Assembly: GCF_016925615.1 (NCBI RefSeq) | Contig: NZ_CP070499.1 | Location: forward strand, 4,960,001 to 5,024,000 | Direction of reading: 5' to 3' | From: Natronosporangium hydrolyticum | GTDB lineage: Bacteria > Actinomycetota > Actinomycetes > Mycobacteriales > Micromonosporaceae | DNA: 64,000 nucleotides | Shown here: in pieces, positions 17,694-55,867 of the stretch | Position numbering within the stretch: the stretch's first letter is position 1 | How the letters are laid out: every line of letters starts with the position of its first letter | Program-made: the position numbers and the translations under genes | The notes under the pieces: model-generated | The model's database searches: none | What the model saw: only the letters and a program-made list of their open reading frames with translations | What the model was told of the DNA's origin: nothing

Positions 17694-17759
17694 ACCTCGC
17701 CGCGTGGCCTACGGGACCTCGCCGCGTGGCCTACGGGACCTCGCCGCGTCGCCTACGAG
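17694..17759. repeat. Three tandem 22-bp repeats
   Basis: Three head-to-tail 22-bp units begin at 17694, 17716 and 17738. The first two are identical and contain CGCGTGGCCTACGGG; the third differs in two positions and runs directly into the left arm of the long inverted repeat at 17751-17928. They lie in the 493-bp gap between the VOC gene and the TetR-like fragment, where I see no convincing gene. Confidence 0.85.
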
Positions 17760-17928
17760 ACCTGCTAGCACAAACGGAGCGGTCGAGAGGGTCCCGGGCC
17801 GGCGGCTCGGCCGCCCCGGGGCCTGACCTACGAGGCGTTCAAGCAGGCCACGAGGCTCACTGGCTACCCGGCGCGGTGCCGGCACCCGGTGCGCCGCCGC
17901 TCCGCTTGTGCTAGCAGCTCTCGTAGGC
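17751..17928. repeat. 32-bp inverted repeat enclosing ~114 bp
   Basis: The arms at 17751-17782 and 17897-17928 are reverse complements at 30 of 32 positions; both contain TGCTAGCA. The 114 bp between them include a GC hairpin near 17805-17825 (CCGGCGGCTCGGCCGCC). The whole could fold as one large stem-loop, or be a small non-autonomous mobile element or its remnant. No transposase is adjacent. Confidence 0.8.
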
Positions 17929-41115: not shown

Positions 41116-41164
41116 TCGGTGGCGGCAGCAAGTTCTGTCGGTGGCTGGGGGTAGGTTGCCGGTC

Positions 41165-42175
41165 ATGTCGGGTGATTCGAGTCCACATGATGCGGTGTTT
41201 CGGCGGATGCTGGGGGAGCCAGCCAACGCGGCCTCGCAACTGCGGGCGGTGCTTCCGCCGGAGTTGGCCGACCAGCTGGACCTGGCCCGGTTGACCCGGC
41301 TGCCGGGCAGCTTTGTGGATGCCAAGCTGCGGTGGCGGCACTCGGACCTGCTGTTCACCGCCCCGTTGGCCGGTGGTGACGGGCACAGCGGAGACGAGCG
41401 CAGCCGGGAGGCGTTCATCTATGTGCTGGTGGAACACCAGAGCGGCACCGACAAACTCATGCCGTTGCGCATCCTTCGATACATGGTGCGCATCTGGGAT
41501 GCGTTTCTGAACGAGCATCCACGAGCACACCGGTTGCCGGCGGTGTTCCCGCTGGTGGTGCACCACAACCGGCAGGCGTGGGACGCTCCGACCGAGCTGG
41601 CCGACCTGTTGGATCTCGACCCGGGCACGGTCAAGGCTGCCGGTGAGTTCCTGCCCCGGCTGCGGTTTCTGCTTGATGATCTGACCGTGGTGGACGAGGC
41701 GGCGTTGCGGGCGCGGCCGGTGACTGCGCCGGTGCGGTTGACGCTGCTGCTGTTGAAGATCGCCGCGGGTAACGCCGGCCTGGCTGATGATCTTCGGCGG
41801 TGGTCCGATCAGTTGCAGGTGGTGCTGCAACGGCCCAGTGGCATTGAGGATTTCGTCACCATGCTCACGTATATTCAACAGGTAGGTGAGGTTCCTGCGC
41901 AGGAGTTGTATGACCTGTTCGCAGGGCTGGGGCCGACAGTGAAGGAGGCGTTCGTGACCACCGCTGAGCAGCTTCGCGCCGAAGGTGAAGCCCGTGGTGA
42001 GGCCCGTGGTGAGGTCCGTGGGCGTGCCGAGGCGCTGACCCAGTTCTTGACCCACAAGTTCGGCCCGCTTCCGCCGGACGTGCACGATCGGGTTCATACC
42101 GCCACCGTCGAGGAGCTTGAACGCTGGACCGGTCGGGTCGTCACCGCCCGCACCCTGGCAGAGGCCCTCGACTAA
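41165..42175 (+). CDS. Rpn-family nuclease, copy A (Transposase_31/YhgA-like)
   Basis: 336 residues. The N-terminal PD-(D/E)XK-type domain shows HDAVFRRMLGEP, WRHSDLLF with Asp61, and YVLVEHQSG with Glu90-x-Gln92, the family catalytic set. Then come LRYMVRIWDAFL and a helical middle. Near residues 273-288 is a four-residue repeat tract (GEAR, GEAR, GEVR). Family members are DNA nucleases that stimulate RecA-independent recombination and can act in anti-phage toxin-antitoxin systems. Copy B at 50182-51204 has one more repeat unit. An internal start at 41954 may yield a short antitoxin. Confidence 0.88.
   Translation: MSGDSSPHDAVFRRMLGEPANAASQLRAVLPPELADQLDLARLTRLPGSFVDAKLRWRHSDLLFTAPLAGGDGHSGDERSREAFIYVLVEHQSGTDKLMPLRILRYMVRIWDAFLNEHPRAHRLPAVFPLVVHHNRQAWDAPTELADLLDLDPGTVKAAGEFLPRLRFLLDDLTVVDEAALRARPVTAPVRLTLLLLKIAAGNAGLADDLRRWSDQLQVVLQRPSGIEDFVTMLTYIQQVGEVPAQELYDLFAGLGPTVKEAFVTTAEQLRAEGEARGEARGEVRGRAEALTQFLTHKFGPLPPDVHDRVHTATVEELERWTGRVVTARTLAEALD
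41954..42175 (+). CDS. Possible intragenic RpnS-like small protein (copy A)
   Basis: A GTG in frame at codon 264 of the rpn gene is preceded by a consensus AAGGAGG with 5-nt spacing (41942-41948). Translation from here would give 73 residues starting VTTAEQLRAEGEARGE, covering the four-residue repeat tract and the C-terminal domain. In enterobacterial Rpn systems the separately translated C-terminal piece (RpnS) dimerises through such a repeat helix and blocks the nuclease. Translation here is a prediction from the sequence signal and that precedent. Confidence 0.5.
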   Translation: MTTAEQLRAEGEARGEARGEVRGRAEALTQFLTHKFGPLPPDVHDRVHTATVEELERWTGRVVTARTLAEALD

Positions 42176-42212
42176 ACCGACCAGCACCACCACCGCCGAT
42201 GGCGGCCCCGGT

Positions 42213-50181: not shown

Positions 50182-50415
50182 TTAGTCCAAGGCCTCTGCC
50201 AGGGTGCGGGCGGTAACGACCCGACCGGTCCAGCGTTCAAGCTGCTCGACGGTGGCGGTATGAACCCGATCGTGCACGTCCGGCGGAAGCGGGCCGAACT
50301 TGTGGGTCAAGAACTGGGTCAGCGCCTCGGCACGCCCACGGACCTCACCACGGGCCTCACCGCGGGCCTCACCACGGGCTTCACCTTCGGCGCGAAGCTG
50401 CTCAGCGGTGGTCAC
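50182..50415 (-). CDS. Possible intragenic RpnS-like small protein (copy B)
   Basis: In-frame GTG at 50415-50413 with AAGGAGG 5 nt upstream, as in copy A. The product would be 77 residues, four longer than in copy A because of the added repeat unit. If the two small proteins pair only with their own length class, the copies would form distinct toxin-antitoxin specificities (inference). Confidence 0.5.
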   Translation of the reverse strand: MTTAEQLRAEGEARGEARGEARGEVRGRAEALTQFLTHKFGPLPPDVHDRVHTATVEQLERWTGRVVTARTLAEALD

Positions 50416-51204
50416 GAACGCCTCCTTCACTGTCGGCCCCAGCCCTGCGAACAGGTCATACAACTCCTGCGCAGGAACCTCACCTACCTGTTGAATATAC
50501 GTGAGCATGGTGACGAAATCCTCAATGCCACTGGGCCGTTGCAGCACCACCTGCAACTGATCGGACCACCGCCGAAGATCATCAGCCAGGCCGGCGTTAC
50601 CCGCGGCGATCTTCAACAGCAGCAGCGTCAACCGCACCGGCGCAGTCACCGGCCGCGCCCGCAACGCCGCCTCGTCCACCACGGTCAGATCATCAAGCAG
50701 AAACCGCAGCCGGGGCAGGAACTCACCGGCAGCCTTGACCGTGCCCGGGTCGAGATCCAACAGGTCGGCCAGCTCGGTCGGAGCGTCCCACGCCTGCCGG
50801 TTGTGGTGCACCACCAGCGGGAACACCGCCGGCAACCGGTGTGCTCGTGGATGCTCGTTCAGAAACGCATCCCAGATGCGCACCATGTATCGAAGGATGC
50901 GCAACGGCATGAGTTTGTCGGTGCCGCTCTGGTGTTCCACCAGCACATAGATGAACGCCTCCCGGCTGCGCTCGTCTCCGCTGTGCCCGTCACCACCGGC
51001 CAACGGGGCGGTGAACAGCAGGTCCGAGTGCCGCCACCGCAGCTTGGCATCCACAAAGCTGCCCGGCAGCCGGGTCAACCGGGCCAGGTCCAGCTGGTCG
51101 GCCAACTCCGGCGGAAGCACCGCCCGCAGTTGCGAGGCCGCGTTGGCTGGCTCCCCCAGCATCCGCCGAAACACCGCATCATGTGGACTCGAATCACCCG
51201 ACAT
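50182..51204 (-). CDS. Rpn-family nuclease, copy B (one extra four-residue repeat)
   Basis: 340 residues; the same as copy A at 41165 except for an additional GEAR unit in the tract (GEAR three times, then GEVR) and Gln for Glu in VEQLERW near the end. The catalytic Asp61 and Glu90-x-Gln92 are intact, and there is no frameshift or stop, so both copies look functional. The extra unit uses a different Arg codon (CGC), so it is not just a very recent slip. The GTG with AAGGAGG inside the gene is also preserved. Confidence 0.88.
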   Translation of the reverse strand: MSGDSSPHDAVFRRMLGEPANAASQLRAVLPPELADQLDLARLTRLPGSFVDAKLRWRHSDLLFTAPLAGGDGHSGDERSREAFIYVLVEHQSGTDKLMPLRILRYMVRIWDAFLNEHPRAHRLPAVFPLVVHHNRQAWDAPTELADLLDLDPGTVKAAGEFLPRLRFLLDDLTVVDEAALRARPVTAPVRLTLLLLKIAAGNAGLADDLRRWSDQLQVVLQRPSGIEDFVTMLTYIQQVGEVPAQELYDLFAGLGPTVKEAFVTTAEQLRAEGEARGEARGEARGEVRGRAEALTQFLTHKFGPLPPDVHDRVHTATVEQLERWTGRVVTARTLAEALD

Positions 51205-54699: not shown

Positions 54700-55867
54700 C
54701 CGACACGCCGGGGTGGTTTCAAGCGGTCGGTGCAAGGAGTAGTTGATTCAAGGCCTCCGCGGGAGTATCCCATCCCAGGGTCTCCCGCGGACGGCCGTTC
54801 AGCGACACCGCGACCGTGTCCATCTCGGCCTGGCTGACGACAGAGAAGTTGGTTTTGCCTCTCGGGTAGTACTGACGCAGCAGCCTGTTGGTGTTTTCGT
54901 TGGTGCCCCGCTGCCAGGGCGAGTGCGGATCACACAGGAACACCGGGCAGCCTGTGGCCAGGGTGAAGGAGGCATGACCAGCCAGTTCGCTTCCCTGGTC
55001 CCAGGTCAGCGAACGCACTAGATGCTGCGGCAGGCGGGCCATCAATCCGCGCACTACCGTCAATACCTCCGGGCTGGAGCGGTCAACAGGCAATGCGCCG
55101 AGCATCACAAACCGGGTGGTGCGCTCCACTAGAGTCACCATCGCCGAGGCGTTGTTACGGCCCAGGACCAGGTCACCTTCCCAATGCCCGGGCACTGCCC
55201 GGTCGTTGGCCTCGGCCGGACGCGCCGAGATATGCACCTGCTCGGTCACCCACGGCTTACCACAGATCGCCCCCCGGGCGGCCTGCGCGGCGCGGGACTG
55301 CGAACGCCGCTGCTTACGGCCGGTACGTAGCGCGTCGTTGACCAGCTCCCGCAGACTTCCCCGCGCCTGCAGATAGATGGACTTGTAGATCGTCTCGTGG
55401 CTGACCTGCATCTGGGGCATACCTGTGAAGGTACGCCGCAAGGAGTGGGTGATCTGCTGAGGCGACCAACGTTGCCGCAGCCAGGTAGCGACTTGCTCAC
55501 GCAACGGTTTGTGGTCCAGTCGGCGGGGTTTAGGCCGCGCACGCCGCTTCTCGGCGTGTCGCTGCGCCCACTGGGCGGTGTAGCCCCACCGGTACAGCCC
55601 GCCCCGCACCGGCCCGAGCGGGTTTTTCGTTCCATGCCGCGAGGAATGCGACCGTGCGATTTCCCGCCATACCGACGAGAATCCCACCCCGAGCGCTGCC
55701 GCGATCTGCTCGAAGGTCGATCCCTGCCGCCATAGGTTCTCGATCACCTGCCGGTGCCCCAACGTCAACACATGCGCCCGAGCCATGCACCCACTCCGTT
55801 CAACCGGTCCATGCCGTGGTCAACGAACCACTTGCACGGACCGGTTGAACCGAAGCGGGCGTGTCGG
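54700..55867. mobile_element. IS30-family insertion sequence
   Basis: 1168-bp element with imperfect 37-bp terminal inverted repeats (54700-54736 and 55831-55867; 30 of 37 match, outer ten bases CCGACACGCC perfect). It contains one intact transposase gene. No clear target duplication flanks it, so the site may be old or rearranged. Confidence 0.85.
54719..55786 (-). CDS. IS30-family transposase
   Basis: 355 residues. N-terminal HTH (VIENLWRQGSTFEQIAAALG and VSHETIYKSIY), then the IS30 DDE catalytic core: Asp in GHWEGDLVLG, Asp in LTWDQGSELAGH, Glu in PWQRGTNENTN, followed by LLRQYYPRGKTNFS. No frameshift, so the enzyme looks active. Its C-terminal end lies within the left terminal repeat region, as usual for IS30 elements. 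Confidence 0.95.
   Translation of the reverse strand: MARAHVLTLGHRQVIENLWRQGSTFEQIAAALGVGFSSVWREIARSHSSRHGTKNPLGPVRGGLYRWGYTAQWAQRHAEKRRARPKPRRLDHKPLREQVATWLRQRWSPQQITHSLRRTFTGMPQMQVSHETIYKSIYLQARGSLRELVNDALRTGRKQRRSQSRAAQAARGAICGKPWVTEQVHISARPAEANDRAVPGHWEGDLVLGRNNASAMVTLVERTTRFVMLGALPVDRSSPEVLTVVRGLMARLPQHLVRSLTWDQGSELAGHASFTLATGCPVFLCDPHSPWQRGTNENTNRLLRQYYPRGKTNFSVVSQAEMDTVAVSLNGRPRETLGWDTPAEALNQLLLAPTA

Follow-up and report, generated by a model that had tools for sequence, protein, structure and literature searches.

The question raised by this locus is whether a nuclease toxin gene of the Rpn type holds, within its own reading frame, the start of a second gene whose product would restrain the toxin, as described for the RpnL/RpnS toxin and intragenic antitoxin of E. 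coli by Zhong et al. 2023 (PMC10327210). According to the original prediction, an in-frame GTG (41954) follows AAGGAGG after 5 nt and stands just ahead of a repeat tract; both the signal and its position were borne out in the window, by which we mean the whole 64-kb stretch of DNA that was analysed. The features of this gene, hereafter copy A, are as follows.

41165 to 42175, plus strand: rpn copy A, putative full-length RpnL-like nuclease toxin of 336 aa (PF04754, E = 8.5e-48; 31% identity to E. coli RpnA, E = 5e-22)
41345 to 41440, plus strand: PD-(D/E)XK-type residues D61 (41345), E90 (41432) and Q92 (41438), compared in 57 homologues
41870 to 41875, plus strand: TATATT, candidate -10 hexamer of a promoter inside the gene that would serve the short form, some 80 nt ahead of the GTG and marked by a synonymous codon bias
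41942 to 41948, plus strand: AAGGAGG, Shine-Dalgarno sequence belonging to the internal start (99 of 123 homologous sites have the AGGAGG core)
41954 to 42175, plus strand: rpnS-like intragenic gene, GTG (41954-41956), 73 codons and stop (all 123 homologous sites have a start codon here; same column as RpnA M244)
41984 to 42021, plus strand: 12-nt tandem repeat (4-residue GEAR), 3.2 copies, falling in the first, long helix predicted for the RpnS-like protein

Copy A opens with the ATG at 41165, and the last base of its stop codon is 42175; the internal GTG is in this frame, the stop being common to both, and the predicted C-terminal protein of 73 residues was recovered exactly. The spacer between AAGGAGG and the GTG is CGTTC (5 nt), and the repeat tract starts about 30 nt past the GTG, placing the GEAR repeats about 10 residues after V264. 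The ribosome-binding site of the long form reads GGGGGTAGGTTGCCGGTC-ATG, and the internal one looks much stronger. With respect to family, copy A scored 163 bits against PF04754 (Transposase_31, YhgA-like), for which the cut-off is 21, and thus carries the N-terminal Rpn nuclease domain; D61 is invariant and E90 and Q92 are at least 90% conserved among the 57 homologues. In Pfam, the short form came closest to DUF4351 (PF14261), a name carried by some separate RpnS proteins, at 21 bits (17.3 for the long form) against a gathering cut-off of 25, and its membership of that family was rejected since the score misses this cut-off. Sequence searches of the solved structures, with either the protein or the alignment as query, found no Rpn relative, and the PADLOC models gave no match, a result still compatible with phage defence.

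Alignment with the E. coli proteins was informative as to the internal start. V264, encoded by the GTG of copy A, and M244 of RpnA, the published start of RpnA-S, both occupy alignment column 307, and the sequences around them read AAGGAG-GCGTTC-GTG in copy A and AAGGAG-AGTTTA-ATG in E. coli; RpnA-S was lost when K240, E241 and M244 were changed (PMC10327210). RpnA and copy A are alike in their nuclease domain, in the start column, in having AAGGAG 6 nt from the start and in having 4-residue repeats soon after it, whereas they differ in the start codon itself (ATG versus GTG), in the larger number of 4-residue repeats of copy A, and in that copy A belongs to the high-GC Actinobacteria and has a near-identical inverted partner, copy B. 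Rpn/RpnS systems have variable 4-residue repeats 8-20 residues after the internal start, a feature that copies A and B share. The rpn gene of Clostridioides difficile, as described in PMC10327210, resembles copy A in being a Gram-positive gene with an internal start, but comes from a low-GC host. The proposed layout of an RpnS-like intragenic antitoxin was thus right as to family, and the site aligns with the RpnA-S start, the antitoxin function itself being probable by homology. As to the claim that this extends the arrangement to a high-GC actinobacterium, the extension is supported, but it was to be expected and is not surprising, because rpn genes were already reported in 34 bacterial phyla and RpnS was demonstrated from a C. 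difficile gene in E. coli (PMC10327210). In the searchable literature, we found no prior examination of an intragenic Rpn/RpnS start in Actinobacteria.

The 73-residue protein was modelled with AlphaFold (pLDDT 90.7), and helices were predicted at residues 3-36, 41-48, 52-62 and 68-72. With one helix of 34 residues and then three short ones, the model would be compatible with RpnA-S; direct comparison of the model with RpnA-S (7TH0) gave a weak, non-significant match (Z 2.8, under unrelated helical proteins), and a Foldseek search with the same model returned nothing significant.

Could the motif simply be what a GC-rich gene produces when it encodes a conserved Lys-Glu-Ala-x-Val peptide, with no internal start being used at all? 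The pattern AAGGAGGNNNNNRTG has 2 matches in the window, where 0.13 is expected, these being copy A and the equivalent place in copy B (50427-50413, minus strand). However, AAG GAG GCG are common codons, Lys-Glu-Ala codons in a GC-rich gene yield AAGGAGGC easily, and a looser pattern (AAGGAGG with a downstream RTG) occurs genome-wide only slightly above its control (72 matches versus 52 for the reversed pattern). Composition by itself proves little and makes a weak case for an internal start; that the start is more than chance follows from its conservation across homologues.

Relatives, both full-length and partial, were gathered from the genome itself, from its family and from one genus of the same order, giving 123 distinct actinobacterial homologous sites with a full-length subset of 84; a scan of genome contigs gave only 7 distant relatives. 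A start codon was found at all 123 sites (GTG 70, ATG 52, TTG 1), and is thus kept among homologues. In the full-length homologues, all 49 valines of this column are encoded by GTG, the alternative being Met or a single TTG, whereas at 19 other Val-rich columns GTG accounts for 21-68% of the valine codons and Ile, Ala or Leu also occur. Mapped on a tree made from the toxin domain alone, the start column underwent at least 19 codon changes, every one of them within ATG/GTG/TTG; at other Val/Met-rich columns, 33 of 325 changes starting from ATG/GTG/TTG ended in one of these three codons, so that 19 out of 19 by chance would have an illustrative probability near 1e-19. The Shine-Dalgarno sequence behaves likewise: its Glu codon is GAG in 118 of 120 sites, against a background of 57% elsewhere, and its Lys varies (mostly to Glu, also to Arg and Gln) while GGAG(G) is usually retained. 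A Shine-Dalgarno core of at least 5 nt precedes the start in 115 of 123 sites, versus 3 of 1541 control in-frame NTG codons of the same genes. The original prediction had named breakage of the site by synonymous change in homologues as the observation that would count against it, and the site proved unbroken.

These comparisons show selection on the internal start as a start, and reveal constraints at the nucleotide level that the long protein alone would leave unexplained. The idea that the motif is a peptide by-product, which we now regard as hardly credible, is already contradicted by the aligned homologues, where the start column switches among Val, Met and Leu but uses solely GTG, ATG and TTG for them, and where GGAG(G) persists through the replacement of Lys; in a second family, described below, GGAGG is even retained through other residue pairs. 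We conclude that the locus is very probably an actinobacterial Rpn toxin/intragenic-antitoxin gene, a reading that is by far the best and that, while ordinary in kind, appears well supported as far as sequence reaches.

According to this Rpn/RpnS reading, the full-length frame would yield a PD-(D/E)XK nuclease (RpnL-like), while the internal AAGGAGG and GTG would provide a separate ribosome start, yielding the C-terminal oligomerisation domain (RpnS-like) as a protein of 73 residues. This short form would bind, by way of its repeat-bearing helix, to the identical domain in the long form and thereby keep the nuclease inactive, and the count of 4-residue repeats would decide which copies are able to pair. 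From homology with E. coli we infer that the short form is separately expressed, pairs with the long form and inhibits it, and that the system plays a part in phage defence.

A further possible source of the short form is a short mRNA transcribed from a promoter within the gene. At codon -29 from the internal start, Ile is encoded by ATT in 49 of 67 homologues against a background of 10%, which is the strongest synonymous bias among 310 columns, and the resulting TA(C/T)ATT fits the bacterial -10 pattern TAnnnT well. The E. coli study reports a transcription start inside every rpn gene (PMC10327210). No conserved -35 turned up when the homologue alignment was examined upstream of the -10-like element, and we therefore offer the internal promoter as a suggestion.

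Copies of the C-terminal part standing on their own were also encountered. A separate rpnS beside rpn has been described for rpnC and rpnE of E. coli and occurs in relatives of copy A, although not at copy A's own locus: in 12 fetched loci, a full-length rpn gene is adjoined downstream by an extra C-terminal copy. Several C-terminal-only copies (L061, L112, L117, L119 and the second copy of L106) have no start codon between the preceding in-frame stop and the GTG equivalent, so that, if translated, they would be translated from the GTG-equivalent codon. A tandem of two further rpnS-like copies at L106:250-691 lies next to an rpn gene. Across homologues, the lengths of the C-terminal frames cluster at 65, 69, 73, 77 and 81 aa, a ladder with steps of 4 residues.

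These stand-alone copies bear on another possibility, namely that the internal start is real but that its product, without being an antitoxin, serves the nuclease complex as a structural subunit or modulates its activity, in the manner of Cas11d with Cas10d, or else works in trans on other Rpn proteins. The comparison shows just that the start is kept, and trans roles are made conceivable by those C-terminal copies that have no intact adjoining toxin in the fetched stretch (L061 and L119). We nevertheless judge this alternative unlikely, as PMC10327210 documents in vivo and in vitro inhibition of the nuclease by the homologous E. coli product, and the arrangement at the start matches that of E. 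coli codon by codon, which favours the antitoxin.

The second copy of the gene in the window lies in inverted orientation.

50182 to 51204, minus strand: rpn copy B, 340 aa, with one extra 12-nt repeat, inverted relative to copy A
50182 to 50415, minus strand: rpnS-like frame of copy B, 77 codons (GTG 50415-50413; AAGGAGG 50427-50421)

The duplicated block (41132-42188 and, inverted, 51237-50170) is 98.4% identical between the two places, with a 12-nt indel. The first 263 codons of copies A and B are identical, and the in-gene differences, four base changes and one 12-nt repeat, all fall within the part encoding the short form; the synonymous differences that appear at codons 275 and 277 in the alignment are an artefact of gap placement. 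This comparison also addresses whether copies A and B are decaying, with the internal start a relic that is functional in relatives and silent here. Three of the 7 larger rpn copies in the genome do have a broken toxin part, their C-terminal part and its signal being intact, a pattern that by itself could be decay. Copies A and B, on the other hand, are intact, keep D61/E90/Q92 and a strong Shine-Dalgarno sequence, and differ so little from each other that we give the relic explanation only a small probability beside that of a working toxin/antitoxin gene. Elsewhere in the same genome, a truncated rpn C-terminal fragment (L071:1015-1257) was noted some 0.7 kb upstream of a complete rpn copy.

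In the experiment on RpnC, a change of one repeat in either direction abolished protection (PMC10327210), and because of this, copies A and B, which are one repeat apart, might not cross-protect. They would form a natural pair for asking if repeat number sets toxin/antitoxin specificity.

Matches to the C-terminal domain were also found on different proteins of about 290 aa, which constitute a second actinobacterial family. At least five members are present in the genome itself, L165:1501-2361 (G000:C1:5159596-5160456), L011, L012, L014 and L015. The family occurs in 52 of 151 genomes of the same bacterial family, across which it has many copies, and in 4 of 396 genomes in a thin sample of the phylum. 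No Pfam match was obtained for three members and no NCBIfam match near the cut-off for two; one member was without a match in PADLOC and had none under 0.001 in PHROGs. A profile of the family aligned with that of Rpn over 277 columns (hhalign probability 99, E = 2e-18), indicating remote homology. Residues D51, E69, Q71 and K78 are invariant, forming an Rpn-like D-ExQ-K signature, and the C-terminal domain has GEARG repeats; the predicted structure (pLDDT 84.9) weakly resembles PD-(D/E)XK enzymes.

All 96 distinct sites of the second family have a start codon at the place equivalent to V264 (87 ATG, 6 GTG, 3 TTG), a count that is somewhat lenient since the start was allowed at or within one codon of that place. 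The Shine-Dalgarno core is at least 5 nt long in 80 of the 96 sites, versus 14 of 1111 control codons, and its GGAGG arises from the codons of Leu-Glu, Trp-Glu or Trp-Arg. This family, too, has separate C-terminal copies, and in one of them (L194) a stop codon lies right at the Shine-Dalgarno sequence (TAGGAGG). It thus seems likely that intragenic antitoxin starts reach beyond the named Rpn family into this second, unnamed actinobacterial family, and Actinobacteria would then possess many gene-within-gene toxin/antitoxin pairs that annotation has missed. Of the two families, the second is where the greater novelty lies.

Taken as comparative data, these observations offer strong evolutionary evidence for a toxin-with-internal-antitoxin design in high-GC Gram-positives. 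They also provide a simple test that needs nothing but aligned genes, namely a column limited to ATG/GTG/TTG with a Shine-Dalgarno sequence kept despite amino-acid change, which could find other genes within genes and has, with the second family, already led past the named Rpn proteins.

Two other elements of the window were recorded: a 22-nt tandem repeat at 17694-17763 (3.2 copies, 95% matches), and an open frame at 54719-55786 on the minus strand that reads, by eye, like an IS30-type transposase.
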